Both the position numbers and the translations under genes were made by a program. From assembly GCA_038049695.1 (NCBI GenBank), contig CP142461.1:38613501-38677500 (forward strand): a stretch of DNA of 64,000 nucleotides, read 5' to 3'. The first letter of the stretch is position 1; every line of letters begins with the position of its first letter. Positions 5,753-53,593 of the stretch are shown piece after piece. This stretch comes from Cinnamomum chago. Its lineage: Eukaryota > Streptophyta > Magnoliopsida > Laurales > Lauraceae. Below the pieces are notes generated by a model. That model was not told the DNA's origin. It ran no database searches and was given only the letters and a program-made list of their open reading frames with translations.

Positions 5753-6576
5753 GGAGTCCTCTCCAAGCATTCCGGAGGAGGAACACACACAGAAGGATCC
5801 GGAAAAATCGCTAGAAAATCATTCAAAAATCCTTGGAGAAATCTCTACAACCCTGCTCCTTCAAGAAAACTCTGCTGCAACAAGTTCAACAAGGTGATTG
5901 AAGCCCCTTGGGGGGCCACCCCCCCCAAAGACCACCTCTCCTTCTATCCAACATGGCTAGATGCGGCTTTTCAGCCCGTCTACTCAGTTTTTTACCGGAT
6001 ATAGGACCTTATCTTGGTCCTTATCCTCTAAAAATCTGAGGTTGGAGCCAAGCCAAGAAATCAAGTACTATGTTCTCATCTGAAGGACGATGGCGGAGCC
6101 CATACATGACTCGCGACCATCGATCTGAACGAGCCCTCCCACAATCGCATGAGAAGTTAGATTCCTTTTTCTTACTTTTCTGTTGTAAATTGTATTTTTT
6201 CTAAAGAGACAAAAAAATCACATATCTTGTCTTTCATTATTGATAAGATTTGTAAATCGCCTTTCATGGCAAAATCGCCTCCAACGGCACCAAACCGCCT
6301 TCTACGGCACAAAAACGCCTTTCACGGCATTCAAACAAAACTGTCTCTTTTATTAAAATATGTATGCAATGGAAAACTAGAAAAAAGTTTCATTTCCATT
6401 TTTACTTGTGAAGGTGGATCTCCGGATCACCATTTCTAAATTCCAAGTATTAAAGAGAAATTGGCATACCCGTACAAAAAAACTGATGCCCGCTTTTCCT
6501 TTTTCCCTCCACCATACCCCGTCAGCCCCGGGGCGGAGGCAGCTTTGGAAAAAGACAAAAGCCGGGTCCATCAAGC

Positions 6577-6594
6577 TGGCACACCCGGTGGGAC
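6577..6594 (+). other. Gypsy primer binding site
   Basis: TGGCACACCCGGTGGGAC starts 3 bases after the 5' LTR. The TGG start matches the complement of a tRNA CCA end, as required for minus-strand priming. I do not assign the tRNA. The nested gag-only element begins only about 14 bp further on. Confidence 0.7.
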
Positions 6595-6865
6595 TCGTTC
6601 ATTTGATGTGAAAGTCCACGAGGATCCTAACCCTAGAGGGGGGGGGGTGAATAGGGTGAGCTACAACTATGACCAATTTAAACCAATTTTAATTTCTTAA
6701 TAAAAACTAGTCACATGTGATGATAAGACAATCAAAATGCGGAAGCTAACAATACAATCATCACAAAGCAATCACCACAACACCAAGGTTTATAGTGGTT
6801 CGGCCTCAATGCCTACATCCACTACCGGCTTGTGTATCCAACACCCCACCGGATTCCACTAATTA

Positions 6866-6988
6866 TGCTTTTTACTAGGCTAAGCAATAACCCTTACAAA
6901 GTTGTTTTTCTAGGCTAAACAACAACCTCTCAATGTGCTTTTATAGGCTAAGCAATAACCTTACAATATGCTTTTCTTAGGCTAAGCA
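6866..6988. repeat. Tandem hairpins with AGGCTAA loops in LTR
   Basis: Four units in a row share a loop containing aggcta. Arms are TGCTT/AAGCA (6866-6870 with 6882-6886), GTTGTTT/AAACAAC (6901-6907 with 6917-6923), TGCTT/AAGCA (6936-6940 with 6950-6954) and again (6969-6973 with 6984-6988). The related element has GATGTT/AACATC at 46425-46430 with 46442-46447. Both arms change together, a compensatory pattern. Confidence 0.75.
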
Positions 6989-7632
6989 ATAACCTTTACA
7001 AAGTTGATTTCTCAAAGAAGGTGTCTTTCCAAAAGATCACTCTAAGAGATTACAATTTAAGCTCATATGAAATTGCCTCTTGAATAGGCTAATATGAAAG
7101 TTTAATACAAATTACAAACATACACTTAAAACAAGCTAAAGTGTGTGCACAAGTGTATGAGTGTGTTCCTTCAATCAATCTTAACAAAGAAGCTCTTAAA
7201 TGAATGCATGATGCATTTTAAAATCAAAGCTTATAAAATGATGATTGAAGAGAAAACTAATCACATGTGAAATTCAAACAACTTTAATAAATGAACTAAA
7301 CAAGTTGTATGAGTGTAAAAGTCTAAGAAAGCATGTGATTTAGTTAAGAGAGTTTGCAAACTAATCTAATTTACCAAGGAAGATATTGAGTTTGCAAAAC
7401 AACTCTTTATAGGCTTGAAATCATGCATAAATGAAAATACCAAGGATTTGAACATGCATGAATTTCATTTGAATGGAAATCAAAATAACTTAGAAGATGT
7501 ACCTTTTAAAAACTCATGAGTTTGATTTCCAAATAGCCCTCTAGCCTTTCCAACTTCTTCCCCTTTCTCTGGCTCCAAAATGCTCTCAAAAGTTCATGGT
7601 TCAAGCCTTGAAAAAGGTTGGAAATGAATGGA

Positions 7633-7835
7633 CTTTATAGGCAAAAAACAGTCCACGGGCTAGTTGTCTCGGTCGACCTAGAGGTCTCGGTCGACCGGGA
7701 CAACACAACGGTCATATTTCTGACCGTTGGGAAATTTCTGCACAGAAACTTCCCAGGGCCCTGCAGTGTCCTCGGTCGACCGAGACACAGGGCTCGGTCG
7801 ACCGGCGACACTGCCGGGCGAGTCCCTGGGCCAAA
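7633..7835 (-). promoter_or_regulatory. Palindrome cluster and TATA box of gag-only element
   Basis: On the minus strand a GC-rich block (about 7835-7665) holds four CGGTCGACC-type palindromes, including the 14-bp perfect CTCGGTCGACCGAG at 7771-7784. It also has the hairpin AACGGTCA/TGACCGTT (7707-7714 with 7721-7728). A TATA-like CTATAAAG follows at 7640-7633. This layout, palindromes directly upstream of a TATA box, recurs in the related element at 46103-53588. Promoter function is inferred. Confidence 0.6.
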
Positions 7836-8320
7836 AATCCACTTTTTCCATTTTCAAAGTTTTTCTTTGGGGGATCTTTTTGGCCACTAAATCAAGCTTA
7901 AATACATGATTTAAGGTATTCTAAGAAGATTAAAACATGAGATACCTAAAGCCTAAGAAGATTCAAAGGTTTAAGACCTTAGGCAAGCTTGATTAGTAAA
8001 AACTCTTTTCAAAAGATATTGCATACAAAACTGATTCCAAAGGTGCTGAAAGTATGCAAACCTGAAACCTAAATACCTAACATGATTTTCCAAAAGTAGT
8101 GCACATGGAATTAGGTTTTCAAAAAGAGTTTGGGATTCAAAACCAATGCATCCAAGTTTAAAACCAAAACATGCATAAAACAAAAGCTTTTCCAAATCTT
8201 AAAAGCTATGCATGTATAAAACTAGATTTCAAGGTTTTCTAACACAATGCTAGTGTGTGAATTCAAATGGTGCTAAAGCGCAAATGCATCCATCAAATTG
8301 CAAAAACAAAAGACCTAACA

Positions 8321-8333
8321 ATCTCCCCCTTTG
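8321..8333 (-). other. Polypurine tract of gag-only element
   Basis: The minus strand reads GCAAAGGGGGAGAT immediately before the 3' LTR start TGTTAGG. This is the expected plus-strand primer position. The related element has AAAGGGGGAAAT at the same place. Confidence 0.8.
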
Positions 8334-8933
8334 CAATTTGATGGCAACTTACTCATCATTGAAATTACACACTTAGTCTTCAGCTCCCCCTTAGCTGGAC
8401 AAGTCTTGAAATCTTCTTGGATGCTCCTTCTCTTAGCTTGGGCTCTTGGGCTCTTTTCGTCAATCTTCTTGATGCTTGGTGCTTGATCATTCTTCAAGCT
8501 TTCTTATCATCTTCCTCTCTATGGCCAAGTATTTTCTTTAGCTCCAAGCTTTCTTTCTTCTATTTGCTCTCCCCCTTTGACCATGCCTCTCTCTCTTGAG
8601 AACTTGAAAGCTTTCTCCCCCTTAGATGGATAGGAGATCTTCGAGTACTTGAACTCTCGAACTCTCTCCCCCTTTGATGAGTAGGAGATCTTTGAGTCAC
8701 ACTTGAACTCTCTCTCCCCCTTTGACATTAAATTGCAAAGGTACCTACACACATGAGACAAGAAGAATACCTTTAGTAGCACCTGTTAACAAATGAAATC
8801 GAAAATGAAATTCATAACAGGCTATCATGTATGTAAGTTAACTCTAAGGGCTCAAAGGCAATCCAAGGGTCAATTTGATCAAAACTAACACTTCCTGTGA
8901 AGGTTTACTCTCCCCCTCAATCCATTCTCTCCT
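8334..8933. other. Internal non-coding segment with CTCCCCC-rich repeats
   Basis: No gene is seen. Repeated pyrimidine blocks of the type CTCTCCCCCTTTGA occur about every 50-60 bp (for example near 8570, 8665 and 8710), purine-rich in the element's sense. The segment is homologous to 48391-48960 in the related element. Small frames here are not conserved. Confidence 0.5.
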
Positions 8934-10710
8934 TTTGTCAAACTCTTGACAAAGATTTAACTATTAGGTGCAAGAAGTAGATGGTTTACCAATGAGGGTC
9001 AACTTCAAGGAAAGGATTAGATTCATTTAACTATAAAGCTCATATGATCAAATTGCCAAAAGAAAGCAAGGTCTAATGGGAGAAGCAATCATGGATATCA
9101 ATTGAAACAAACATATCAATTGAGATTAAAGGATGTGACTATTAACACAATCACTCTAAAATGGATTCAAGAATGTTACTTATTAGGAAAAATCCAAATT
9201 AGAGCTATCCATGATATGGGGTTTACTCAAACATAGCATCAATCAATATTACTTATGAAAATCATATGCTATGTAAGTTTTGAACTCATTTCATTCAATC
9301 AATAAATATGACTATTAAAGTGCATGAAAGAGTGAAATGAAATTCAATCATGAAGCCAACCTCAAATAATAACCAACCAATATTATTAACACATAAACAT
9401 GGTGGTCATGAGATTTACCTATGAGAGCAAAAAGAGGTGGCAATCATGAGCATTATGATGCTAATGGTGTGTGACGTGGAACAATTATATAACTATGAAG
9501 ATTAGTCCAAAGCACACAAGGTCTATCACATACACAAGATAAGATATCAATTGGATATGAAATCAATGGAACATTATACCAAATGAAACCAATTGAATAT
9601 GATAACATGAGTAAAAGCAAGGATGTGATACACTTCCATCAAGTATCATAAATGCATATTCATCACTTTTAATGATATTCCTAAAGAGCATAGTGATGAA
9701 CAAGGCAAATTGCAATGCAAAAGGATAAAGCTTTGTAATGCATGCAATTTCCAAAGTGTCTAGATCATATGAATTCAACACTAAGAAATCCATCAACCAA
9801 CCTAAATGCAAGGAATGGATTTCAAAGAGATTCATATGATTAAGAACACTACTTATGAAGTTGAAACATGTATAAGGATGACATCAAGAAAATCTACATG
9901 AATCAACATCATAACCATCCATAAAGAAATGACTAGGTAAAAAGGATGGATTTGGGTTCTAGTATGGTTTCTACAAATGTAACTAAGGTCACAACCATAC
10001 ATGGAACCAATTGTCATTTGCATATAAAAAGAATGTAAACACATAAGCTAAAGATGCAAACAACATACATTTCCATTTCTAAAGATAATGCAACCAAAAG
10101 AAAAGGAAATGAGAATCATGGAACATGCTTTGATGAATCTAACTAATGAAGTTATAGAGCATTTCCATTCAACCAATCTTCAAATCATTTTGATAAACAA
10201 AATCCAACAATGAGCATAAAAAGAATGAATTTGAAGATCAATTTTCAACATTGTATTTTAAAAGATATAACTTAAATGAAACACATACAAGTTGATTTTT
10301 CAAAACAATGTTCTCCATATAAAAGTATACCTTATAAATCCATGGAAAAACTTGAATTGATTCAAATCATTTGATTTACAAAAAAATGGATCTAACTAAG
10401 ACATCCATCAAATGATCTAACAACAATTGATCATGACAAATTAGCTATGAAAGCTTTTAACATCACAATCAATTAATCATGTAGAAATGCAATGCAAAAC
10501 ATATGAGTGCAACAAGCAAATCAAACATGATGAGATTATAATCAAAAGATTTTGAAAACCATGAAGTGTAACTTAGAATGGTGCATGAAAACAAAATCAA
10601 ATGATCATAAATAAGCAATGCATTTTATGAAATGTAACTAAGAAAGAACCAAAATGCAAAGCAACATGACCAACAAAAGGATTTAACTTAAAAAGCATAG
10701 GTTGGTCAAT
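8934..10710. repeat. Array of about 20 stem-loops with TAACT-type loops
   Basis: Successive inverted repeats with 7-14 bp arms and loops mostly 19-36 nt. Examples: 9231-9239/9266-9274 (9 bp perfect); 9659-9667/9692-9700 (9 bp); 9707-9719/9739-9750; 9764-9774/9830-9840 enclosing 9785-9793/9815-9823; 9962-9969/9993-10000; 10176-10189/10224-10238 (14 bp, one bulge); 10366-10375/10407-10416 (10 bp); 10620-10626/10651-10657; 10667-10674/10701-10708 (8 bp). Arm sequences differ between units. Many loops carry TAACT followed by A/T bases. The array lies between gag and the polypurine tract, in the untranslated 3' part of the element. Confidence 0.8.
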
Positions 10711-10723
10711 GAGGTCCAAGACC

Positions 10724-12283
10724 CTAAGGTTTGACTAGGTAAATGACTTTAGGAATCCACCTAAGGTCTTGGGAGGGTTGAACTTTGAGGTCTATTTTGG
10801 GCTTCTCACCAACTATAGGAGATTTAATTTGATAAATTTTCAATTTAAACTTATCACCATGATATTTAGATTTTACTAAATTTGGCTTAGAATGGTGATT
10901 AGTCTTTTGAAGTTGGTGAGTTTGATTCTTAGGGGATTGCTTCACTTTTCTTTTCTTCTTACTTTCTCCCTTTACTTGACTTTTGAAATTTAGATTTAAC
11001 TTTGTAAATTTCTTCAAAAGTTCTTTTATGTTTTGACTTAAGGGAGGTAGGTTGAGAAGCTTTTTGTTAATAGATTCTTTGATTTTTGGTTTAACTTGTT
11101 TAATCCTTTTAGAATCTATCTTGGGAGACTCCTTGTTAATTGGTTTCACTTGTTTAAGCTTTATGGAGTCTTCCTTGGTTTTTAGTGTCTTACCCTTCAA
11201 GTTTGATTTTCCATTTTTGAGTTCAAAGATGGGTTTAGACACATGGCTTCTCTTCCTTAGATTGCACTCAAACCTAAAGTGTCCTTCAATGCCACAATAA
11301 TTACATTTAGACATGGGCAAAGAAGTGTGAGTGCTAGAGAATGAGGACTCACCTTTCACAAAAGTGTTGGTGAATTTAGGGTCATAAGATATATTCCTAT
11401 TAAATCCAATACCCGTCCTATCTCCATGAGATTTACCCAATTTGAATAATTTTTCAAGTTTCTCTTCACTTTGGGTAAACTTGCACTCATACTTTTGTTT
11501 ATTGTTTTCAAGTTGAGTGACTTTGGTTATAAGGATTGAATTTTCATTTTTAACTTTTGAAAGTTCATATTCAATTTCCTTATATTTGCTTAGCTCTTCA
11601 TTGGCAAGTTTTAATTCATGTTTAAGTTCATTAACAATATTAGATCCAAGTTCTTGTGATTTTAACTTACTTTTAATCAACTTGGCTTCTAAGTTGTTAA
11701 AGTCTTTATCTTGTTTTTTAATTGTATCTCTTAGGTTCAAATTTTCATTTGTAAGCTCATCACAATTTATCTTAATCTCATTTAATTCGTTTTGAGTATT
11801 AGATAAATTTTCCTTAGAGATAGTCAATTTTGATTCAAGATTGTTAAAGTCTTTATCTTGCCTTTGTAATTGATCTCTTTGTTTTAGATTTTCCTTATTG
11901 ACATTATCATAATCCATCTTTAATTCTTTTAGTTCATCTTGAATGTTAGATAGATTATTTAAAGAGATCATGAACTTAGAGTCTAGACATTTTATTACTT
12001 CTTCTTTCTCTCTAAGTTCATCTTTTGAAGAGGCTAGCTCTTTGGTTAGATTCATAGATTCTTCTCTTAAGCTTTTGTTTCTTTTATCAAGCTTTGTAGA
12101 TAATGTATATAATTCATTATAGGCTTGTTGAAGATCATCTTCATCATACTCATTTTCTTCCTCTTTTGAGTCAAATTGATATTCATTTAATTGATGGTTT
12201 GAATCTCTAATAGAAGGAAGAGTGAGAGGTCTAGAAGAATCTACAAGATCTAGCATAGTGGAGTCCATTCTAATGATTTTCAA
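10724..12283 (-). CDS. Gag-like protein with coiled coil and CCHC knuckle
   Basis: 519 residues, the only long frame of the element. Residues about 50-290 are heptad-rich, charged coiled coil with an internal duplication: two similar blocks, each ending in KDFNNLE. A zinc knuckle of the C-x2-C-x4-H-x4-C form (CNYCGIEGHFRFEC) lies at residues 327-340 (11305-11264). A Lys-rich tail follows and ends WIPKVIYLVKP. CCHC knuckles bind retroelement RNA, so this is probably the particle protein. It stops before any protease. The usual copia-type N-terminal capsid segment is replaced by coiled coil, so assembly may differ. The first Met is used as start; Met6 is an alternative. Confidence 0.8.
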   Translation of the reverse strand: MKIIRMDSTMLDLVDSSRPLTLPSIRDSNHQLNEYQFDSKEEENEYDEDDLQQAYNELYTLSTKLDKRNKSLREESMNLTKELASSKDELREKEEVIKCLDSKFMISLNNLSNIQDELKELKMDYDNVNKENLKQRDQLQRQDKDFNNLESKLTISKENLSNTQNELNEIKINCDELTNENLNLRDTIKKQDKDFNNLEAKLIKSKLKSQELGSNIVNELKHELKLANEELSKYKEIEYELSKVKNENSILITKVTQLENNKQKYECKFTQSEEKLEKLFKLGKSHGDRTGIGFNRNISYDPKFTNTFVKGESSFSSTHTSLPMSKCNYCGIEGHFRFECNLRKRSHVSKPIFELKNGKSNLKGKTLKTKEDSIKLKQVKPINKESPKIDSKRIKQVKPKIKESINKKLLNLPPLSQNIKELLKKFTKLNLNFKSQVKGESKKKRKVKQSPKNQTHQLQKTNHHSKPNLVKSKYHGDKFKLKIYQIKSPIVGEKPKIDLKVQPSQDLRWIPKVIYLVKP

Positions 12284-12370
12284 GTAAGGACAACTCTAGG
12301 GTTTTAACTCTAGGTTTTTACACCTAATCAAGAGTTCCAAACACTTGATCCTAAGGGATTAGAGCACTTG

Positions 12371-12382
12371 GCTCTGATACCA
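12371..12382 (-). other. Primer binding site of gag-only element
   Basis: The minus strand reads TGGTATCAGAGC, complementary to the 3' end of plant initiator Met tRNA as used by many copia elements. It lies 2 bases inside the 5' LTR. Confidence 0.85.
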
Positions 12383-12384
12383 AT

Positions 12385-14099
12385 TGAAAGTCCACGAGGA
12401 TCCTAACCCTAGAGGGGGGGGGGGGGTGAATAGGGTGAGCTACAACTATGACCAATTTAAACCAATTTTAATTTCTTAATAAAAACTAGTCACATGTGAT
12501 GATAAGACAATCAAAATGCGGAAGCTAACAATACAATCATCACAAAGCAATCACCACAACACCAAGGTTTATAGTGGTTCGGCCTCAATGCCTACATCCA
12601 CTACCGGCTTGTGTATCCAACACCCCACCGGATTCCACTAATTATGCTTTTTACTAGGCTAAGCAATAACCCTTACAAAGTTGTTTTTCTAGGCTAAACA
12701 ACAACCTCTCAATGTGCTTTTATAGGCTAAGCAATAACCTTACAATATGCTTTTCTTAGGCTAAGCAATAACCTTTACAAAGTTGATTTCTCAAAGAAGG
12801 TGTCTTTCCAAAAGATCACTCTAAGAGATTACAATTTAAGCTCATATGAAATTGCCTCTTGAATAGGCTAATATGAAAGTTTAATACAAATTACAAACAT
12901 ACACTTAAAACAAGCTAAAGTGTGTGCACAAGTGTATGAGTGTGTTCCTTCAATCAATCTTAACAAAGAAGCTCTTAAATGAATGCATGATGCATTTTAA
13001 AATCAAAGCTTATAAAATGATGATTGAAGAGAAAACTAATCACATGTGAAATTCAAACAACTTTAATAAATGAACTAAACAAGTTGTATGAGTGTAAAAG
13101 TCTAAGAAAGCATGTGATTTAGTTAAGAGAGTTTGCAAACTAATCTAATTTACCAAGGAAGATATTGAGTTTGCAAAACAACTCTTTATAGGCTTGAAAT
13201 CATGCATAAATGAAAATACCAAGGATTTGAACATGCATGAATTTCATTTGAATGGAAATCAAAATAACTTAGAAGATGTACCTTTTAAAAACTCATGAGT
13301 TTGATTTCCAAATAGCCCTCTAGCCTTTCCAACTTCTTCCCCTTTCTTTGGCTCCAAAATGCTCTCAAAAGTTCATGGTTCAAGCCTTGAAAAAGGTTGG
13401 AAATGAATGGACTTTATAGGCAAAAAACAGTCCACGGGCTAGTTGTCTCGGTCGACCTAGAGGTCTCGGTCGACCGGGACAACACAACGGTCATATTTCT
13501 GACCGTTGGGAAATTTCTGCACAGAAACTTCCCAGGGCCCTGCAGTGTCCTCGGTCGACCGAGACACAGGGCTCGGTCGACCGGCGACACTGCCGGGCGA
13601 GTCCCTGGGCCAAAAATCCACTTTTTCCATTTTCAAAGTTTTTCTTTGGGGGATCTTTTTGGCCACTAAATCAAGCTTAAATACATGATTTAAGGTATTC
13701 TAAGAAGATTAAAACATGAGATACCTAAAGCCTAAGAAGATTCAAAGGTTTAAGACCTTAGGCAAGCTTGATTAGTAAAAACTCTTTTCAAAAGATATTG
13801 CATACAAAACTGATTCCAAAGGTGCTGAAAGTATGCAAACCTGAAACCTAAATACCTAACATGATTTTCCAAAAGTAGTGCACATGGAATTAGGTTTTCA
13901 AAAAGAGTTTGGGATTCAAAACCAATGCATCCAAGTTTAAAACCAAAACATGCATAAAACAAAAGCTTTTCCAAATCTTAAAAGCTATGCATGTATAAAA
14001 CTAGATTTCAAGGTTTTCTAACACAATGCTAGTGTGTGAATTCAAATGGTGCTAAAGCGCAAATGCATCCATCAAATTGCAAAAACAAAAGACCTAACA
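12385..14099 (-). repeat. 5' LTR of gag-only element
   Basis: 1,715 bp, a near-perfect copy of 6609-8320 with the same palindrome cluster (13450-13610), TATA-like site (near 13415) and hairpins. It is followed by the target duplication tgatg at 14100-14104. Confidence 0.93.
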
Positions 14100-14261
14100 T
14101 GATGAACATGTGCTTAGATTCCTTTTGGCTCCATTCTGGTTGGTGGCCTATGTTGGATCTTGCATCTAAAAAAAAACACATGAGATGGGATTCTTGGAAA
14201 TTTCTTCTTTTGAGTTTATTTCCAGTCTTTCTTGTTTCTAAAAAAATTTTCTCAAAAAAAA

Positions 14262-15290: not shown

Positions 15291-15640
15291 CCCATCTCGT
15301 GTCCTTTCCAAGGATGCGATTTGCAACATTTGTGCCTAGCGGTGCTAGTACGCCCTTTCGGGTCTACTGTATTCGCAACCGACACATTTGTATCTCAACC
15401 TTATATCATTTTACCTTGAGTGAGCTTTGCTTCTCGGTAATTTGAATTAAGGTTCACAATTGCTTCTAGCAGTCACTGGGACGCTCATTCTGAGCTGACC
15501 CTACCTGCGTTCAGAACAATTGTGCCCTCTATGGCTTTTCTGCCTTCCTCATATTGCTTGGGCTGGGCCATGTCCCCTCGGGCGACTTGAAAAGGCGAAA
15601 CCATAGTATTTTCCATTTATGATCACCATATTCTTGTGAT

Positions 15641-15666
15641 TACTAATGGATATGGTCTTGTTTCAG
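15641..15666 (+). promoter_or_regulatory. Probable leader-intron branch point and 3' splice site
   Basis: TACTAAT (15641-15647) is a consensus branch point, followed 18 bases later by a pyrimidine-rich TCTTGTTTCAG ending at 15666. The Gag-Pol ATG follows at 15687. This suggests that a 5' leader intron is removed before Gag-Pol translation. I did not identify the matching donor with confidence. Confidence 0.5.
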
Positions 15667-15686
15667 AAGTTTTCCAAAAACTAACA

Positions 15687-18600
15687 ATGGCAGCTTCATT
15701 AACCATCACCTTTGATGAGAACAAGTACCAGCTCATGCTCCAAGACAAACAAACCAAGCGCACTTACAAGCGCTCTGCCAGCTGCCGAAGCGTCATTTCC
15801 CTCGGCAACTCAGAAGACACCGGGTCAAACTCTACTCCCCGGACCATTGTCTTCGGGTCATTGGGACCATTCCCACTACCCGCAGAAGAAACCGCACCTG
15901 CCAAGAAGCAGAGAACCGCCCCTCAACGTATCACTACAGTGATACCAAGGGCGATCATCAAGAAGCCTGAGGCCCGTAGCGCTCCTGCAAAGCCTCAACC
16001 AGCAAGAAACCAGGTCTGCTCAAAGACTTGGTCTCCAAGGCCTTCACCCAAACAACGAAGGTCACAAACATCAGCAAAGCCAGCATACCTGGCCCCTCTC
16101 AAGGAGAACCGGTTCTACCCTCTTGCTTACATGAAAGAGAAGAAGCCTACCCTCCGCCAAACAGAACCAACTCAGCACGAGCCGGCTTGCTCATACAAGC
16201 CCAAAATCAAATCGTGCATCGTAAGGCCTCCGCAAGAACCTGTCAAGGCCTTCACACCTGCGAGTCGACCCTTCCTCTCAACGGGAGCCGAACTCGCAAA
16301 ATTCAAAGCTTCGCTGCGACAGGCAAAGGACCGCGTCCAGATCCTGTCCCTGCCCGTCTTCAAAGAAGACAAGCTTGGCTGCTGCGCACCAGAGACTACT
16401 TCCTTCATTGCTAGGGCACAGCCAGAGCTAACCAAAGTTCAAATCGCTCGTCGTATGCGTCGCCGAACGGCATATCGACAAAAGAGACTAGAGAAGCAAA
16501 GAACCCAGGATTCTGCACTTCAAGTCTCCCAAAAATGGGTCGAAAAAGAAAGACCCGACCAACTTGTTGCTGTTCATATGGTTGGAAAAACCAGAAAACG
16601 CCAGAAGTCAGCAACTAAAATCCATGTCAGACGACCGGTGACTCGCAGCGTCTCCCGGACACGAAGACATAAAGAAAACTCTCCCGCTCCTTCAAGCCAA
16701 GGACATCAGAGTGACCACTCTTCGAGCTCTTCATCTAAAAGAATGAGCTCCAGCTCAGTCACCAAGACTGTATCCTCTTTCGACTCTCGAAGAATGAACG
16801 TCTTGGTAACAAATGCTGAGCAACCTCCGCCGCATGATGACGTAACCGCACGCATCCAGCAGCTGGAGCAAGGGCAGCAAAGGATAGAGACTCTAATAGA
16901 GAACCTAATGCTCAATCTTCAGCGTCCACAAAACAATGAAGCTCCTCCGAGCCATCAAGGCGACGAGGAAAATGTGGAAAACAGTGAGTCACGCGCCCTT
17001 ACCAAAAAGGACGTTGACGATATCCTCGCCAAAGCAAAAAAAGAGGATACACTAAAGGAGCATGGGATCAAGCCACCATATCCCTTGTGGATGGACTCGG
17101 TCCCGTTCCCTACAAAATTCAAGCAACCTACTCTCCAAACATATACGGGGAAACGTTCAGCCAGACAACACGTCATCCATTTCAAGATCCTGACGGGAGC
17201 TATTGCGGATCAAGATGCCCTCAAAATCCGCCTCTTTGCAAGTACCCTAAAAGGTACGGCCTTTGATTGGTACGCCACTCTGCCTGAGGACTCCATTCAA
17301 AATTGGGCCATGATGGAGACACGCTTCCTAACCCACTTCAAAGGTGAGGATCATCCTGTTACTATGGCTCAGCTCTGCAGCCTAAAACAGGGAGAGAATG
17401 AGTCAACATATGACTTTATTCACAAGTGGAAGGCAATGGCATACAAATGCTCCGATGTACTGCCACAAGCATCACTGGTCGACATCTGCCGAAACAACAT
17501 GAGAGCAAGAATCCGCTCCATGATCATCGGCAACAAATCAAAGAACCTGGGAGAACTCCTGGAAGCATCTATGGAAGCTGAAACGGTGATCAAAGACCTC
17601 AACAGTCAGAAATCATTAAAGAAAGAGCCGACTACCATTGCAACCTCAAAACCAAAGAAAAAGGAGGTCCTCAATGTGCAAACCAAGTCAGCTCCTCAGC
17701 AGCCAAAGAAAGATGAAAACAAAGCTACAGGTAAAAAGCCTGAACTCTCTGATGCCTTCAGAGAACGGGTAGAAAAGAAATACCCGTTTGATGAAGATGT
17801 TGAAGAAATCTTTGGGGCACTCCTAGCAAGCAGCAAACTTACATTGCCTGACCCCAAAAGACCAGGAGATGTTGGCAAAACCAACTATCCTCGGTACTGC
17901 CCATACCATCAGATGGTCTCGCATCCTCTCAATCAATGTTTTGTTGTGAGAGAGAAGATAAATGAGATGTGGAAAAACGGAGTCATTACCTTCGACAAGA
18001 ACTATGGGTCTGCCTCCGTCAACATGGTGTCGTGTGGACAAAAACAAAAATCACCAAAAGAGAAGATCACTACTTCCTTCAAGGTGATAAAGATGACCCA
18101 AACGTCCCAAGAGTTGGTTCCATATCCAACATCAGACGGACAGCCCATATGGGTACACCCCGATCTCCTAGAAGATGAAAATTGGGAGGTCGTCAAAACA
18201 AAGCCAACCGCTCAACAGCGAAGGCAAGCCAGGAGACAACTCCGCAAGCTCAAACAGCAGGAGAAAGCTCCGAAAAAGCAAGAAGTCGCTGAAAAGGCAG
18301 AAACCTCCTCTACCGCTTCACTGGGGGCAACAGAAGAGTCCTCTCCTAAGGCTTCAAAGGCGGCAAGAAAATTCACTCTTGGTGATTTCATGCCACCACA
18401 TCTCAAAGATGAAACTACGCAGGGGGCATCATACTCTTGCAACTCAGTGGTCGGATTCTCCATGGATGGATATGAGTCCAGTGACACCGCCAGTGACATC
18501 GATGAGTGGGAAGAATCCCTCGAAACAGGAGAATATCTCTCCGATGAGGAATGGATCCCTGAATCTCATCTTATGCCAGTAATCTGGTATAACCCATTAC

Positions 18601-21600
18601 AGCCGCAAGGATCCTGGTCTGATGATGAAGAAGACCAAGAGGCTGTCCAAGAAAATACTCCAGTGGAACCCAACCATGTTGAACCACAAGGAGCAGACGA
18701 AGAAGAAGATTTGGCTCCCGTGCCTGATCTCGATGAATACGCAAGGATCTTGCAGCACCTTGCTATAGAGCAAGAACAAGGTCGCATCAATCAGCTTCGT
18801 CACAACCCAGCACCGGAAGTTCCTGAAAATCTACAGGAATCTACTTCGGTAACCCCGGAAAACGAAGAAAGCTGTTGGATCGACGATCCTCTTACATCTG
18901 AGGACGAATCTGATTCCCAACAGTTCATCTTGGAGGCATCTTCCGTCAAAGTTACTTGCAATGCAATAACTCAGGATGATAATTCCTCACTTTCTCAGGC
19001 TTCGTCTCCTGGAACAGTGACATCGGAACTCAAACCTCTTCCGACCGATCACCTTGAAGAAATTCCAGCCGGTGAAATCTTCTTCAGAGAAAATCCGGTC
19101 AATTGGTCCCAAATGCCCAATCTCATCGGTGATGTCTGGACCAACAAAATATTCGATAAAGAAGGAAAGTTGATGGATGCTGTTCAGGACTTGCTCCTGG
19201 AAAATGCTCCATGCAACACAATTACTGAAGATGGTAATGCTGACACAGAGAAATCTTCAGCAAATGAGAAGGAACAACCCCTCGATCTCGAGGGTGATCT
19301 TCTAAACAAAGACCCTTCTCCAGAAGCTCTTGAAGTTGGTAGAGGTACCCGTTCTGGCCAGGATTACCACAAAAACTACAACCAACCTTCTGCTTCTTAT
19401 GTAAATCCTTCGGGAAAACAAGTTGTAAACGCCCCTAGTGGCAAGAATAATGAAAATGCAGGCCCCAAGGAGGCTTTCAAGTATGACTTGATTCAGCACT
19501 TCAAACACATACCTGCACGTCTGCACATCCTAGACTTATTACGAATGTCACCACAGACTCGTGATAGTCTCATTTCAGAACTACAAATGCTGGATGCGGA
19601 TGTCGACAAACATGCCCCACAAGTCCTACAAATTGAAATGGACTATAGGGTCGAAAAATCAAAAACTCCCTCAAAAGGAGAAAAGAAGAAAACTGAGGGA
19701 TCCTGCATCGAATGCCTCTCGGTTCAAAAAGCAGCAAGTGCAACCATCGCCTTCACCAAGGAAGACCTCCTGCTAGGCGAGACAAAGCACAACCGACCCC
19801 TGTACTTCACCGGGTACATCAAAGAGGTGCCAGTACGCAAAATCCAGATCGATCCAGGTTCTGCACTCAACCTCATCTCCACTTCGGCACTCGAAAAACT
19901 GGGCATTCCGCCTAGCAAGCTGAGCCACACGTCTGTGTCCATCTTTGGATATGATGGCAGCGCTCAAAGGCCGATCGGCAAAATCAGGTTCAAGTTGCAA
20001 ATCGGTGATCTTATCTCCGAGGTCACTGTCTATGCGATAAAGACCCCTTCATGCTACAACATCCTTCTCGGACGTCCCTGGATACACGAGAATGGTGTTG
20101 TCCCTTCGACTTTACATCAGTGCATCAAGTTCGTTGGCAATGACGGCTTGATACATCGAGTGTTTGCAGACAAAAAGCCCTTCAAAGGCAAAGAAGTCTA
20201 TTTCGCAGATGCTCAGATGTACAAAGATGAAAAAGAAGAAAGGGAGGAAGAAACAACATCCTTTGCCGAAAATCTCCAGAAAGACAAAGGCAAGGCTCCT
20301 CAACAATCACCGGAAGAAAATAAACCCTCTATCAAAACCGAAGAGAATAATCAATCTCCCTTCATGGTCTCCCTCAAGTCTTCAAAGCCTCTGGTGATCA
20401 CCACCAAAGCAAAGAAGACAAAACAGAGGGCTGGGGGTAAGTTTGCTGTCTCCTTCGTGTCTATCTTGCAAGACACGGATTCGGACTCAGAGCCAGAAGA
20501 CGATACATCGTCAAGCCAAGTTGATGATCAACAAGTTCAGCCCGCTCTCACTCCGATGGAGACAACCGTTGACATAGAAGATCCAGCATCTGCTTCCTTC
20601 GTTGTTCCAGCAACATCAGCAGAAGAAAAGCCAATCTTCTTCCATAAATCAGAAGTTTCTTCATCAAATTCTTCGCTTGAACCTTTCCAAAATGAAGGTA
20701 TGCCTCAACTATCCCTGTATAGTCCAATGGCGCAAGCTATCATGAAGAAAATGGGCTACGATGCTCAGAACCCAATCGGTTTGGGAGATGGTCGTGGTAT
20801 TATCACGCCATTGGAACCAACCCTGACCAAAAGTCAACTGGAAGGTTGGAAACCCCACCGCCACATAGAAAAGTCTTCACATGGGCTGGGGTATGATCCT
20901 GACGCTCCCTTGAGACAGTTGACACAAAGGCTGCAAAGTCATCTTGCCGACCAAGCCTCAACATCTCATATTAATGAAGACATCGATCTCCCTGGATATC
21001 TCTTTGAAGAGTTGATCGTCAAGGATCCAGGAAGTTCATCCAATTGGTACGATTTCTTCGATGATGAAGAGGAATTGTCCGATGATACAGACACACGGTT
21101 CTCTGACCCAGAAGAACCACTGTCTCCAAAGGAAGTGCCCTACTTCGACCTAGTTTCAACAGGTGATTGGGACCATCTCATAGCAAATCTTGAGAAAAGT
21201 ACCAATCAAGAAGACCCATGGACAAAAGCAGAGCCGTGGTCTGTAGATACCTTGGGAACTCCAGAAGGCTTTGTTGGTTTGGAAGCCTCCGAAAATATTG
21301 TGGAGGAACCACCTTCAAATCTTCCAACAGAAGATTCTGTTCAAAAGATAGACTTGGGAAAACCTGATAACTCACGTCCTGTATTCATAAGCAAGAATAT
21401 AAAGGATGATGAGTTACCCGAGTATATCGCCTTTCTTCATGAGTTCGTTGATTGTTTTGCATGGTCTTACGCTGAGATGCCTGGCTTAGACCCCAAAATA
21501 GCAATCCATAAACTCAATCTTCAAAAAGATATCAAGCCTGTCAAACAAGGCCAAAGAAGGTTCCGTCCTGACGTGATGGACAAAATTGAACAAGAAGTTC

Positions 21601-46102: not shown

Positions 46103-48378
46103 TGTAAAGTCCTGGGATCCGAACCCTAGAGGGGGGGTGAATAGGGTGAGCTTCAATTATGACCAATTTTAATCAATTTAACTTCTTTAACTTAAACTAG
46201 TCACAAGTGGTGATTACAAATAAAATGCCGAAGCTTACTAAAAACAATCACCACAAAGCAAGCACCATCACACAAGGATTTACAGTGGTTCGGCCTCAAT
46301 GCCTACATCCACTATCGGCTTGTGATCCAACACCCCACCGGATTTCCACTATTTATGCTTTTTAATAGGCTAAGCAATAACCTTTACAATATGCTTTTCA
46401 AGGCTAAGCAATAACCTTTACAATGATGTTTTTCAAGGCTTAACATCAACCTATACATTATGCTTTTCTTAGGCTAAGCAATAACCTCTTCAACCAAGTT
46501 GGTTATCTCTCTAAGTAGTGTCTAAATTACACTTGATGGAGATTCAATTTAGCTCATTACAATGCCTCTTAATTAGGCAGATATGGAAGTGAAAAACTAA
46601 ACACTTGATGGAGATTCAATTTAGCTCATTACAATGCCTCTTAATTAGGCGGATATGGAAGTGAAAAACTAACTCACACAAACACTTAATGAATGCAAAG
46701 ATGTATGCTCATGACGTGTGTGTGTGTGTGTGCGATGTCCTCAATCATTTTGAAAATGAAAGCTCATAAATGTATGCCTAAGGCTTTTGAAAGTTTTAGC
46801 TCATAAAACATTTATGATTGAGGAAATGCTAATCACATGTTAAAACTAACTTGTAAAAGATATACATTTGTATCCTAAACAAGTTGTGAAAATTCAAAGA
46901 CCAAAACATGTGAAGCATAGGGATGTCAATCAAATCAACAATGTAGCTCATAAAATATAAAAATAGATTTGATTGAAATAAGGGGACAAACCATATGTAA
47001 TTATAAATACAACTTGAATATGATATACCAATCAATGCAAAGCAAGTTGTGAAACTTTAAAACAAATTTACATATGATTTGTAAAGATGTTGAATCCACA
47101 ACATAAGATATATTTTGAAAGAGATTTTCTTATGATGAAAAACAACACCCACCCAAAGATTCAACCAAGTAAATGAATCATGTTACATATAATTTCAAAG
47201 ATTCTTTCATTAACATGATCTACTTAGATTTACCAAATAAAGTACTACTTGGATTGAATCAAATGGTGATGCATCCAAAACAATAGATCAATTCAAAATA
47301 TAAAACATGTTAAGGACACAACAAATTAATCATAGTTTATCATGCTAGAAAGGATTTACCAATAATTAGAGCAAAACATGAAAACATATGATTTATAACA
47401 ATGTTGAATCCAAAACATAAGATATATTTGAAAGTGATTTTCTTGTGATGGAAAACAACAACCAAAGATTCAACCAAGTATATGGATCATGTTACATATA
47501 ATTTCAAAGATTTTTCCATTAACATGATCTACTTAGTTTTACCAATTCAAGTACTACTTGGATTGAATCAATGGTGATGCATCCAAAACAATGAATCAAT
47601 TCAAAACATAAACATGTTAAGGATACAACAAAACATAGTATATCATGCTACAAAAGATTTACCAAAAATAAAACAAAGCATGATAACATATGGTTAAGGA
47701 AAGTAGAGCTTACTTGGTGATTTAACTCATTAATCCAAGCTTTAGCTTTCCTAATGATCCCCTTCATCCCTTAGTTCATTTCCCTTTTATTTGCCTCAAA
47801 ACCCCTCAAGGAGGGCCTTAAAATTCCCAACTTTTGGCAAAGGAAAGAACTCATATTTATAGAAAAAAATGCCCAACGGCTAGTCCCCGGTCGACCGGGT
47901 ATGCACAACGGTCAGAAAAATGACCGTTGGAGCTTCAGGAACCCAGTCGGCCTGCAATGTGGCCGGTTGACCGGGTCCCCTGGGCCGGTCGACCGGCCAC
48001 ACTGCTGGTCGACCCCCTGGGACCAAAATTCCCATAATTGCATATTTTCAAAATATTTCTTGGGGGAACTTTTGGGCCACTAAACCAAGCTTGGAAACAT
48101 GTTTAAAATAAACCTAAGATGTTTAAAAATATGAAACACAAGGAGCCTAAAATGATTCGAAACTTTAAAACCAAAGGCTTGCTTGATTTCTAAAAACTCT
48201 TTTTAAAAAACAAATGCATCCAAGATTAAAAACAAAAATGCATAAATCAATACTTTTACAACTCTTAAAAACAATGCATGTATAAAACAAGATTTCTTAA
48301 ATCAATGCATATGTGTAAATCAAATGATGCTAGAATGAAAATGCATCCATCAAATTGCAATCTACAAAAACCCTAACA
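46103..48378 (-). repeat. 3' LTR of non-coding element
   Basis: 2,276 bp, about 90 bp longer than its partner at 51400-53588. A 70-bp segment (CACTTGATGGAGATTCAATT onward) is duplicated at about 46533-46670, and a GT run near 46716-46731 is longer. The LTRs differ at more sites than those of the gag-only element, so this insertion is older. A palindrome block lies at 47885-48020, then TATA-like TATAAATA (minus strand, near 47855). Confidence 0.9.
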
Positions 48379-48390
48379 ATTTCCCCCTTT
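48379..48390 (-). other. Polypurine tract of non-coding element
   Basis: The minus strand reads AAAGGGGGAAAT directly before the LTR start TGTTAGGG. Confidence 0.8.
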
Positions 48391-51240
48391 GCAATTTGAT
48401 GGCAACACACTCACCACTGAATTTACACACTAAGTCTTCAGCTCCCCCTCAGCTGGACAAGTCTTGAAATCTTCTTGGATGCTTCTTCTCTTAGCTTGGG
48501 CTCTTGGGCTTCAATCTTCTTGATGCTTGGTGCTTGATCAATCTTTAAGCTTTCTTTTCATCTTTCTTTCTTTAGCCAAGCATCTTCTTTAGCTCCCAAG
48601 CTTTCTTTCTTCTATTAGCTCTTCCCCTTTGACCATGCCTCTCTCTCCCTTTGGCAAGATATGCATTCTCTCCCCTTGTCGAAGATCATACAAAATCTCC
48701 CCTTAGGAAGCTTGGACATTCTCTTCCCCTTTAGAGAACTTGAATGCTCTCTCCCCCTTTGACATTAAATTGCAAAGGTACCTACACACATGAAATAAGG
48801 AAAATACCTTTTAGTAGCACCTGTTAACAAAAGAAATCGAAAATGAAATTCATAACAGGCTATCATGTATGGAAGTAATCTCTAAGGGTTCAAAGGCAAT
48901 CCAAGGGTGAATTTGATCAAAACTAATACTTCCTATGAAGGTTTACACCCCCCCCCTCAATCCATTCTCTCCTTTTGTCAACATATTGACAAAGATTTAA
49001 CTATTAGATGCAAGAAGAAGATGGTTTAACCAATTGAGGGCCAACTTCAAGGGAAGAATTAGATTCGTTTAACTATAAGGCTCAATATGATCAAATTACC
49101 AAAAGAAGGCAAGGTCTAATGAGAAAAGCAATCATGGATTCCAATTGGGATTCAAAGATAAGTCTATTAAAACAATCACTCTAAAATGGATTTAAAAATA
49201 TGACTATTAGGAAAAATCCAAATTAGAGCTATCCATGATGAAATGGGGTTTATTAATCATAACATCAAATAATTTAACTATGAAAAACATATGCTATGAA
49301 GGTTTTGAAATCATTTCATTCAATCAATAAATATGACTTATTAAAGTGCAAGTTGAGTGAAATGAAATTCAAACATGAAGCCTACCTCAACAATTAACCA
49401 ACCAATATTATGAACAGATAAACATGGTGGTCATGAGATTTACCTATATGAGCAAGGGAGGAGGCAATCATGAACATTATGATGCTAATTAATGGAGTGT
49501 GACATGGAATGAAAACATATAACTAGCAAGTTCAATCCAATGTACACAAGGTCTATCACATTCACAAGAAATCAAATCAATCGAAAATTTTACCAATTGA
49601 AACCAATTGAATTTGACAACATGATAAAGAGCAAGGATGTGACAAACACAAAATTCCATCAAGCATCATAAATGGATATTCATCACTTTTAAAGATATGA
49701 CTAATGAGCATAGTGATGAACAAGATAAATTGCAATGCAAAAGGATATAACTTTGTAATGCATGCAATTTCCAGAGTGTCAAAATCATATGAATTCAACA
49801 TCTAAGATATCCATCAAACATATAGAAATATGAGGAATAGATTTCAAAGAGTTTCATATGATCAAGAACACTACTATGAAGTTGAAACATGTATAAGGAT
49901 GATATCACTTAGAGAATGTACATGAATCAACATCATAATCATCCAAAAAGATATGACTAGAGAGCATAGAGGATGGGTTTTAGTTCTAGTATGGTTTCTA
50001 CAAGTATAATAAATATCACAACCATACATAGAACGATTTGACATTTGCATAGAGAGGATCAATCAACACTCAAGATCTAACTCATACCATATCATCAATA
50101 AAAAATATAACTATGTAATCACAAGAAGGTATGAAGTTAAAAGGATCAATCTATCATGTAACATCTCCACTCTTAGAAAATGTACTAAGCTTACAATGCA
50201 ATGGAAAAAGATATGGGGTTTAAACCAAATGAACTTAGCACATAAAATCACATATGTACTTATTAGGCTCAAATGATAATAAAACAAAAGATTTTACTAT
50301 AAAGCACATAAACAATCATCAATTTGCATTAATGAAAAAAAAAATATACCAAGTTAGGCACAAACATGCAAATCAACGAAACCATATCCAACCAAGCAAT
50401 GTAAGACATCAAAATCAATTTGCATAAAGAATGTAACTAAATGAGCAAAGATGCAAATTGTTTGTAAAAATTATTTCCTTCCAAATGATATAATCATAAT
50501 TAAGCACAAGGAAATAAATTCAAGGAAAATGCTTCTATAAATACAACCAATAAAGCTTAGAACATTTTCCAAAGTTTTTCAAATCACTTCAAAATTTAAA
50601 GTTCAAACAAAGAATCATTTATAGAATTAAGAGCAAGCGATTTTGAAAAACAAGAAGTGTACTATTGCAAATTTTCAATTTGTAAAACAATAGACACTCA
50701 CATATTTTCCATACCAAGAGATATAACTTGAAAATCAATGGAAAACATAAATTGCTTCAAATCATTTGATTTACAAAAAAGGTCTAACTATGACATTCAT
50801 CAAATGATTTTCCAACATCAATTGATCATGAAAAATCTAGCTATGAAAGCTTTTGTAATCACAATCAATTGATCATGAATATATATGCACTACAAGCGAT
50901 ATAACTATATGAACAAAATGCAAATCCATCATGAAAATATTGCAATCAAGGGATTTTGAAAACCATGAGATATAACATAAAAGTTCATGAAGACAAAATC
51001 AAATGATCACAAAGAACCATTGCATTTTAAGAGATGTGACTATAAAGAAACAAAATGCAAATGTAACATGACCAACAAATAGATATAACTAAAAAGTATA
51101 GGTTGGTCTAGAGAGGATCAAGGCCTTAAGGTTAGTCTAAAAGTGTACCAATGAAGATTCACCTAAGGTCTTGAAAAGGTTGTCCTTGAGAGATCACTAT
51201 GAGGACAAACCAACTCTTGAAGATATAACTTGAAAAAGTC
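48391..51240. repeat. Internal stem-loop array of non-coding element
   Basis: It has the same design as 8934-10710. Perfect arms include 50416-50425/50451-50460 (10 bp), 50471-50480/50508-50517 (10 bp), 50524-50531/50563-50570 (8 bp), 50705-50712/50738-50745 (8 bp), 50759-50770/50799-50810 (12 bp), 50952-50958/50994-51000 enclosing 50964-50968/50985-50989, 51022-51028/51052-51058 and 51070-51076/51102-51108. Loops near 25 nt repeatedly contain GATATAACT or GTAACTA. Positions correspond to stem-loops of the gag-only element, with paired changes in the arms. No protein is encoded. Confidence 0.8.
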
Positions 51241-51385
51241 TTAGAGTGGTGCAATGAAACTAGGGGAAAATATATTTTCAAACATAGTGGAAATCATTAC
51301 AAAGATATGCAATAAATCACAACACTAGGGTTCTAATCTAGCAAGGATCAACTCCGGGTTGTTAAGCCCTAAAATGGAGTAACCC

Positions 51386-51397
51386 ACTCTGATACCA
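51386..51397 (-). other. Primer binding site of non-coding element
   Basis: The minus strand reads TGGTATCAGAGT, 2 bases inside the 5' LTR, complementary to initiator Met tRNA with one end mismatch. It matches the primer-site type of the gag-only element. Confidence 0.85.
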
Positions 51398-51399
51398 AT

Positions 51400-53588
51400 T
51401 GTGAGTCCGGGGATCCGAACCCTAGACGGGGGGTGAATAGGGTGAGCTTCAATTATGACCAATTTTAATCAATTTAACTTCTTTAACTTAAACTAGTCAC
51501 AAGTGGTGATTACAAATAAAATGCAGAAGCTTAATAAAAACAATCACCACAAAGCAAGCATCATCACACAAGGATTTATAGTGGTTCGGCCTCAATGCCT
51601 ACATCCACTACCGGCTTGTGATGCAACACCCCACCGGATTTCCACTATTTATGCTTTTCAATAGGCTAAGCAATAACCTTTACAATGATGTTTTTCAAGG
51701 CTTAACATCAACCTATACATTATGCTTTTCTTAGGCTAAACAATAACCTCTTCAACCAAATGGTTGATTATCTCTCTAAGTAGTGTCTAAATTACACTTG
51801 ATGGAGATTCAATTTAGCTCATTACAATGCCTCTTAATTAGGCGGATATGGAAGTGAAAAACTAACTCACACAAACACTTAATGAATGCAAAGATGTATG
51901 CTCATGATGTGTGTGTGTGTGATGTCCTCAATCATTTTGAAAATGAAAGCTCATAAATGTATGCCTAAGGCTTTTGAAAGTTTTAGCTCATAAAACATTT
52001 ATGATTGAGGAAATGCTAATCACATGTTAAAACTAACTTGTAAAAGATATACATTTGTATCTTAAACAAGTTGTGAAAATTCAAAGACCAAAACATGTGA
52101 AGCATAGGGATGTCAATCAAATCAACAATGTAGCTCATAAAACATAAAAATAGATTTGATTGAAATAAGGGGACAAATCATATGTAATTATAAATACAAC
52201 TTGAATATGATATACCAATCAATGCAAAGCAAGTTGTGAAACTTTAAAACAAATTTACATATGATTTGTAAAGATGTTGAATCCACAACATAAGATATAT
52301 TTTGAAAGCGATTTTCTTATGATGAAAAACAACACCCAAAGATTCAACCAAGTATATGAATCATGTTACATATAATTTCAAAGATTCTTTCATTAACATG
52401 ATCTACTTAGATTTACCAAATAAAGTACTACTTGGATTTAATCAAATGGTGATGCATCCAAAACAATAGATCAATTCAAAATATAAAACATGTTAAGGAC
52501 ACAACAAATCATAGTTTATCATGCTAGAAAGGATTTACCAATAATTAGAGCAAAACATGAAAACATATGATTTGTGACAATGTTGAATCCAAAACATAAA
52601 ATATATTTGAAAGTGATTTTCTTATGATGGAAAACAACAACCAAAGATTCAACCAAGTATATGGATCATGTTACATATAATTTCAAAGATTTTTCCATTA
52701 ACATGATCTACTTAGTTTTACCAATTCAAGTACTACTTGGATTGAATCAATGGTGATGCATCCAAAACAATGAATCAATTCAAAACATAAACATGTTAGG
52801 GATACAACAAAACATATTATATCATGCTACAAAAGATTTACCAAAAATAAAACAAAGCATGATAACATATGGTTAAGGAAAGTAGAGCTTACTTGGTGAT
52901 TTAACTCATTAATCCAAGCTTTAGCTTTCCTAATGATCCCCTTCATCCCTTAGTTCATTTCCCTTTTATTTGCCTCAAAACCCCTCAAGGAGGGCCTTAA
53001 AATTTCCAACTTTTGGCAAAGGAAAGAACTCATATTTATAGAAAAAAATGCCCAACGGCTAGTCCCCGGTCGACCTGGAAACAGGTCTCGGTCGACCGGG
53101 TATGCACAACGGTCAGAAAAATGACCGTTGGAGCTTCTGGAACCCAGTCGGCCTGCAGTGTGGCCGGTCGACCGGGTCCCCTGGGCCGGTCTCCCGGCCA
53201 CACTGCTGGTCGACCCCCTGGGACCAAAATTCCTATAATTGCATATTTTCAAAGTATTTCTTGGGGGAACTTTTGGGCCACTAAACCAAGCTTGGAAACA
53301 TGTTTTAAATAAACCTAAGATGTTTAAAAACATGAAACACAAAAAGCCTAAAATGATTCGAAACTTTAAAACCAAAGGCTTGCTTGATTTCTAAAAACTC
53401 TTTTTAAAAAACAAATGCATCCAAGATTAAAAACAAAACATGCATAAATCAATACTTTTACAAATCTTAAAAACAAAGCATGTATAAAACAAGATTTCAA
53501 GATTTCTTAAATCAATGCATATGTGTAAATCAAATGATGCTAGAATGAAAATGCATCCATCAAATTGCAATCTACAAAAACCCTAACA
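51400..53588 (-). repeat. 5' LTR of non-coding element
   Basis: 2,189 bp, partner of 46103-48378. The palindrome block at 53065-53215 has one more GGTCGACC unit than the other LTR. Small frames within it overlap palindromes and are not conserved. Confidence 0.9.
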
Positions 53589-53593
53589 ACTAT

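Follow-up and report, generated by a model that had tools for sequence, protein, structure and literature searches.

Retrotransposon biology has yet to explain how elements that carry no genes can attain high copy numbers, and one locus of Cinnamomum chago gives this question a concrete form. A preliminary description of the window analysed here, a stretch of 64,000 nucleotides of this genome, had proposed that the internal domain of a retroelement is built, between gag and the polypurine tract, from about 20 consecutive stem-loops whose arms change from unit to unit around a recurrent TAACT loop core. What kind of element carries such an array, does the array exceed what AT-rich sequence supplies by chance, and what might it do for its carrier? 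About 20 hairpins that are alike and have the same defined motif in their loops make up a concrete candidate signal that can be mutated, and the genomic copies provide natural variants of it.

Two related non-autonomous LTR retrotransposons

Element A (6609..14099, minus strand) is a young LTR retrotransposon in which a gag-like open reading frame (ORF) stands alone. Its sense strand is the minus strand, and its ends and 5-bp target duplication (TGATG, at 6604-6608 and 14100-14104) were read by eye. The 5' LTR (12385..14099, minus strand) and the 3' LTR (6609..8320, minus strand), the latter with motif-centred hairpins at 7368 and 7434, are 99.8% identical over 1715 nt. A primer binding site (PBS; 12370..12382, minus strand; sense TGGTATCAGAGCC) lies 2 nt away from the LTR, and a polypurine tract (PPT; 8321..8336, minus strand) adjoins the 3' LTR, both identified by eye; we take the PBS to match the initiator Met tRNA. 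The gag-like ORF (10724..12283, minus strand) spans 519 aa and includes a CX2CX4HX4C zinc knuckle, which scored 15.6 bits against Pfam zf-CCHC, where the cut-off is 20.8, and the Pfam Gag models gave no match to this ORF. Two homologues were found in the protein database, P0001 (69%) and P0002 (60%), while a search of the genome-contig and viral-contig collections with the Gag alignment returned no relatives; the ORF presumably resembles the C-terminal half of a SIRE-type Gag. No other ORF inside element A exceeds 92 aa, the absence of pol being judged on ORFs alone.

Element B (46103..53588, minus strand; 5-bp duplication ACTAT) is a related LTR retrotransposon without gag, with LTRs of about 2.2 kb and 83% identity to element A over 8139-10024. 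Between its LTRs, the ORFs of at least 60 aa are two in number, of 74 aa and 62 aa. Paired LTRs, a 5-bp duplication, a PBS and a PPT are present in both elements and mark them as non-autonomous LTR retrotransposons. In its LTRs, PBS, PPT and gag-like ORF, with no pol seen among its ORFs, element A is like the TR-GAG elements, whose definition, to our knowledge, does not extend to an array of hairpins that share a loop motif. Element B, with long LTRs and a long internal domain without coding capacity (ORFs of at most 74 aa), is like the LARDs, for which the portions of the literature consulted do not report a series of hairpins displaying a single oriented motif in their loops. Conserved internal RNA structure is a LARD trait; what bears on it here, at the level of sequence, is that stems vary less than loops, with modest covariation.

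In the genome of 1.06 Gb, first-look candidates for family copies numbered 4717 and 3664. From the 40 best-scored of each, 30 were fetched, which biases both copy sets towards young copies; the sets include the window's own copies (L001 and L031), and the A copies comprise 26 unique sequences. Matches to gag numbered 130, and the neighbourhoods of 7 of these were fetched, among them a diverged gag-bearing class (L082-L085 and L087) whose arrays blastn did not match to either element. Some family copies are evenly spaced, five at about 5.8 kb (G000:C12:47815997-47840099) and four at about 6.4 kb (G000:C9:32407325-32428123); these runs are probably tandem LTR-internal arrays.

Unit-specific hairpins around an oriented loop motif

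Perfect inverted repeats with arms of at least 7 bp and loops of 5-60 nt were counted in 8934-10710, a region with a GC content of 0.30, and in 200 dinucleotide shuffles. The region holds 26 such repeats, as compared with 10.5±3.1 in shuffles (maximum 23); 16 have arms of at least 8 bp (shuffles 3.3±1.8, maximum 9), and 12 combine arms of at least 7 bp with loops of 19-36 nt (shuffles 3.3±1.8, maximum 9), so that no shuffle reached 26, 16 or 12. Arms of at least 10 bp number 3, which the shuffle maximum equalled, and perfect arms reach 11 bp at most, with none of 12 bp or more. When non-overlapping hairpins were scored instead (match +1, mismatch -2, score of at least 7, loop of 14-44), the array of element A (8934..10720, minus strand) yielded 19, against 6.3±2.2 in shuffles (maximum 12 in 60), covering 52% of 8934-10720 as opposed to 16% in shuffles, and the array of element B (48960..51290, minus strand) yielded 22, against 7.5±2.3 (maximum 15). 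In five stretches taken from the window as controls, the observed/shuffled counts were 6/2.7, 7/3.5, 9/4.8, 6/4.2 and 3/4.2. Since the arrays thus hold about 3 times the hairpins of their own shuffles, versus about 1.6 times for ordinary window DNA, their excess goes beyond the surplus found in natural DNA. Hairpins are also frequent in the LTRs (14 against 4.8 shuffled in element A, 18 against 8.1 in element B), and the stretches adjoining the PPT hold 2 (1.2 shuffled) in A and 2 (1.4 shuffled) in B. The gag frame of element A (10724-12283) has 11 hairpins, against 4.7 in shuffles (maximum 10 in 40).

These counts bear out the core of the preliminary description, namely some 20 consecutive stem-loops, in excess of shuffled sequence, and they narrow it in three respects. 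Hairpins had been said to occupy almost the whole 1.8 kb, and for all their strong excess they cover about half of it when strictly defined. The array had been placed between gag and the PPT, which is right for the gag side, but about 600 nt towards the PPT (8321-8934) contain just 2 hairpins. The arms had been given as 7-14 bp, many of them perfect; the perfect arms of at least 7 bp are indeed numerous, but arms of 14 bp need mismatches, because the longest perfect arm falls short of that length. The pattern also reaches further than had been described, extending to the LTRs and recurring in the second element.

On the plus strand, a unit consists of an arm, a spacer usually of 4-6 nt, GATATAACTA, a second spacer usually of 8-11 nt and the paired arm, which gives a stem of 7-14 bp and a loop of about 24 nt. 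In the sense RNA the motif reads approximately UAGUNANAU in the internal array, and LTR units, whose loops are GATATACCAA-like, present a variant similar to UUGGUAUAUC. The TAACT core held up well: at 8 or more matches out of 10, the A array contains 15 GATATAACTA sites on the plus strand and 0 on the minus strand (shuffles 2.0±1.5, maximum 8), and the B array contains 22 on the plus strand and 1 on the minus strand (shuffles 3.1), an enrichment of about 7 times in the arrays. Per stretch of about 1.9 kb, there are 15 sites in A, L081 and L086 and 2-4 in the five loci of the diverged class, all of them gag-bearing, while the gag-less element B is the richest in sites, with its 22; array size is therefore not tied to coding capacity alone.

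Individual units illustrate this layout. The unit adjoining the gag stop (10667..10708, minus strand) has the stem TGACCAAC/GTTGGTCA, whose core, GACCAAC/GTTGGTC, is kept in the diverged class, where the loop has changed. A typical unit (10619..10658, minus strand) is made up of TGCATTTT, a loop with AATGTAACTA, and AAAATGCA, and the unit at 10366..10416 (minus strand) has the arms ATCATTTGAT and ATCAAATGAT with GATCTAACTA in its loop. At 10176..10238 (minus strand), a unit with the arms ATCTTCAAAT and ATTTGAAGAT carries two pairs that are compensated between the A-group and the B-group (alignment columns 1849/1924 and 1851/1922).

Pairing within and between units was compared by picking motif sites by sequence alone and setting each left flank against every right flank. 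Arms of at least 7 bp were found in 10 of 21 own pairs versus 8 of 420 cross pairs in the B array (p 2e-10) and in 4 of 13 versus 5 of 156 in the A array (p 0.002), and the pairing rate across all array positions is 171/2251 (7.6%) in B and 123/1697 (7.2%) in A. A looser version of the comparison in the arrays gave 11/16 versus 42/240 and 7/11 versus 27/110, and in the B LTR the difference did not reach significance (2/6 versus 1/30, p 0.07). It follows from this comparison and from the strand counts that the stems are specific to their unit and paired within it, and that the units are co-oriented. Across the whole window, 28 hairpins on the plus strand and 1 on the minus strand have one or the other loop motif at their centre, with 0.06 per 2 kb in shuffled pieces. 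Of the 28, 24 belong to A and B and lie in their arrays or LTRs, although 8 of those 24 represent four LTR units that each occur in both LTRs; the remainder comprises two in the gag of A (10869 and 10993) and two elsewhere (478 and 33984).

The LTRs have further features of their own. Loops at 47022, 47656 and 7368 carry a GATWTACCAA-like sequence, in which we take ATACCA to be the 3' end of the primer tRNA, a match that could be coincidental; the LTR loop might mimic a tRNA end, and the internal loop might be a Musashi-type UAG site. By eye, tandem repeats of 33 nt in the LTR of element A (6871..7010, minus strand) look like small hairpins that share their loop and differ in their arms; in most copies the hairpin is incomplete, and partial pairing seems to be kept despite the arm differences. 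A GC-rich CGGTCGACCG palindrome cluster in the same LTR (7663..7819) is found also at 47946-48013 and 53138-53225 (LTRs), beside a TATA-like site recognized by eye. Among the B copies this cluster has compensated variation at 47949/48010 (GC in 5, AT in 4) and 47964/47995 (CG in 10, AT in 5), and it gives sub-threshold mir-341 matches in Rfam.

Variation, covariation and folding of the stems

Stem conservation in a plain comparison of A with B was discarded as proof of selection, since a stem found intact in one element cannot have changed on the branch of that element, and neutral decay alone would leave such stems looking as well kept. Stem sites were instead taken from one subfamily, and their variants were counted in copies of the other. 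From the 30 B copies, L034, L037, L038, L045 and L058 were dropped for their non-homologous stretches. In the remaining 25, shared variants per site came to 0.083 in A-defined stems, 0.186 in loops and 0.157 in the rest, with 0 of 865 rotations as low as the stems, and singletons per site to 0.180, 0.273 and 0.224, respectively, with 1.6% of rotations as low. In the 26 unique A copies, B-defined stems had 18 variants at 277 sites, as compared with 96 at 447 loop sites and 228 at 1012 sites in the rest; rotations as low as the stems made up 3.0% for shared variants and 0 of 865 for singletons. Stems are the least variable part in both subfamilies. A first pass over all 30 B copies had given 0.166 shared variants per stem site versus 0.411 elsewhere, below every rotation, and, for A-defined stems, 0.310 versus 0.427 in loops and 0.466 in the rest, with 1.85% of rotations as low. 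Singletons were unreduced in that set, which had pointed to selection during replication followed by free decay, a reading given up because singletons are reduced once the five bad copies are removed. In the LTRs, stems had no drop in variability among 15 copies (20 stretches, minus 4 unmatched and 2 too short, plus the other LTR of B).

The array had been characterized beforehand as variable in its stems and conserved in its loops, and this is true between units, as the comparison of own and cross pairing demonstrates, but between copies it is the stems that vary less than the loops. Diversity is 0.114 in the loop core, 0.128 at other loop sites and 0.094 in the rest, and 7 of the 10 loop-core positions have values of 0.05-0.10 versus 0.18-0.22 just outside, figures that are biased low for the core, as the sites were picked for their motif match in four of the copies. 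The low variability of the stems likely reflects selection. A lower mutation rate in stems would account for it as well, since singletons are reduced too and the shared-to-singleton ratio of stems is not significantly lower in B (OR 0.67, p 0.14); in A it is higher (OR 5.8, p 0.003).

Where stems differ between A and B, the change is mostly without compensation: among 163 ungapped A-defined pairs, 134 are the same, 1 is a double difference, 3 are GT and 25 other, and the corresponding numbers for 123 ungapped B-defined pairs are 105, 0, 3 and 15. Fixed differences between groups were scored in an alignment of 18 sequences picked by hand, namely A, B and 16 loci, from which L038, L045 and L058 were dropped to leave 7 A-group and 8 B-group sequences. 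The union of stem pairs, 383 in total, comprises 215 that are the same, 8 double Watson-Crick differences, 9 A.C, 3 G.T and 25 other, the rest being 13 unpaired in both groups and 110 unscored. Arm covariation among copies was thus found in part, with 8 double differences for the true partners versus 0-3 for slid partners, set against 37 one-sided differences. Since the doubles fall in four or five stems, they represent fewer than 8 independent events, and one of them sits where A and B align poorly. By defining element, 3 lie in stems of A, 0 in stems of B and 7 in stems of L086. In the diverged class, an inner pair of one orthologous hairpin occurs as G-C, as A.C and as T-A; it could be scored in 4 of the 5 sequences, since the L085 piece stops before the 3' arm. 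Covariation is present and modest.

Folding supported the predicted structure locally and not in bulk. Mean folding z for the arrays ranges from -0.95 to -1.42 over both strands (sense A -1.25, sense B -1.42), no lower than in a Gypsy coding region (-1.98/-1.41), and thermodynamic z-scores were accordingly rejected as proof of structure, the arrays not being distinctive versus the Gypsy ORF. Mean stem pair probabilities from a local partition function of the sense RNA, however, are 0.83 in A and 0.75 in B, as compared with 0.40 and 0.45 for shuffle hairpins, and 17 of 19 stems (A) and 20 of 22 (B) lie above 0.5. For the antisense strand the means are 0.74 in A and 0.78 in B (shuffle hairpins 0.47 and 0.36). 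A.C, which is G.U in the sense RNA, outnumbers G.T among the fixed differences by just 9 to 3, and the antisense strand folds about equally well, so that the array may act in either strand. Rfam 15 returned 8 matches at E <= 1 and 0 at the gathering score for 6500-14200 and 46000-53700; the sub-threshold miRNA-like matches all fall on the GC palindrome of the LTR and none on the array, and a SNORD51 match (E 0.72) lies in the B array.

Candidate roles of the array

Many similar hairpins, one oriented loop motif and stems that vary little, pair within their unit and are in some cases compensated lead us to read the array as a multivalent RNA docking array, probably a set of packaging or Gag-binding sites dispersed along a non-autonomous element, at a probability of roughly 0.4. 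The family would comprise non-autonomous LTR retrotransposons with a gag-like ORF alone or with no gene, whose noncoding internal domain would line up about 20 small hairpins head to tail, further ones lying in the LTRs. The genomic RNA would use these hairpins, each displaying one oriented motif, as a multivalent docking array, most likely as dispersed packaging or assembly signals for Gag, either its own or a relative's, and an element without pol could thereby still enter particles. We infer that selection acts on the RNA of the sense strand and that what binds to it is Gag. Of the roles suggested for the array in the preliminary description, RNA packaging or Gag binding appears to fit best. 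A bolder version, in which pol-less and even gag-less elements keep and extend their hairpin arrays as a 'packaging code', capture Gag multivalently and outcompete their helper, strikes us as doubtful.

Known systems offer partial parallels. According to the sections of a review used here, the dispersed packaging signals of MS2, picornaviruses and HBV consist of many stem-loops with a common recognition motif, and similar assembly has been suggested for Gag-like proteins (PMC6281560). The arrays described here share with these signals the many stem-loops and the common loop motif, but they differ from them in that their loops are of about 24 nt, their carrier is an LTR retrotransposon and their binding to Gag is putative. 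BARE2, a parasitic Copia element of barley, has no Gag of its own, is packaged in trans and keeps its dimerization and packaging signals; unlike A and B, it is not described as having a hairpin array in the portion of the source that we drew on (PMC3735527). Retand elements, in the part of the account concerned, carry noncoding repeat arrays between pol and the 3' LTR, a location shared with the arrays of A and B, but their repeats are tandem and were found by sequence likeness, whereas the stem sequence of A and B changes from unit to unit, and the words 'hairpin' and 'stem-loop' are absent from its text on repeat arrays (PMC11963269). No array of this kind is described in the portions of the literature searched (PMC7215508, PMC10578108, PMC6281560, PMC11963269, PMC12786077, PMC3735527 and PMC5454406), a search whose scope excluded most subscription journals and that does not show absence from print.

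The structural evidence fits equally well with a selected RNA structure that serves another ligand, be it as a binding site for an RNA-binding protein of the host, as an element for nuclear export or RNA stability, or as a shield against silencing. Such a role would need no contact with Gag, in keeping with the gag-less element B having the most motif sites, and structured export elements exist in retroelements, as stated in the part of the literature consulted (PMC12786077); it leaves the number and the likeness of the units unexplained, however, and we consider it rather unlikely. A mutational origin, in which template switching by reverse transcriptase or tandem duplication made the palindromes and pairing keeps stem mutation low, all without function, would accommodate the mostly uncompensated stem differences between A and B, the scarcity in stems of singletons as well as shared variants, and the frequency of repeat arrays near the 3' LTR in plant elements reported in the sections seen of PMC11963269. 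Mutation alone does not predict a single oriented loop motif, though, nor that the gag-proximal stem should persist in the diverged class, where blastn matches the array to neither element; compensated stem changes speak against it too, although template-driven correction could also give them. Overall we hold a purely mutational origin to be unlikely, while a palindrome-making copying mechanism may be where the arms came from.

A cluster of MYB or similar sites acting at the DNA level, with the TAACTA/TACCAA repeats as promoter or enhancer sites, would explain why the motif, which we take to resemble MYB sites, is repeated and oriented. It does not predict unit-specific complementary arms (10/21 versus 8/420) and gives no reason for the location of most sites 3' of gag, and we judge it to be quite improbable. 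Even less credible is a small-RNA precursor whose hairpins are diced to siRNA or miRNA, for although a hairpin array within a retroelement would suit it, Dicer substrates are longer than arms of 7-14 bp. Chance inverted repeats of AT-rich DNA, which would supply about 6 hairpins, can be dismissed, being ruled out by the shuffles, none of which reached the main counts, as well as by the oriented motif and the cross-pairing comparison.

Outside the two elements, tandem arrays at 55309-55814 are composed of units of 52-63 nt with ACCGACG...CGTCGGT inverted repeats and presumably resemble CACTA subterminal repeats. A single open frame of 3012 aa extends from 15636 to 24674 and, judged by eye, resembles a Gypsy-type polyprotein in which a long stretch separates gag from RT.
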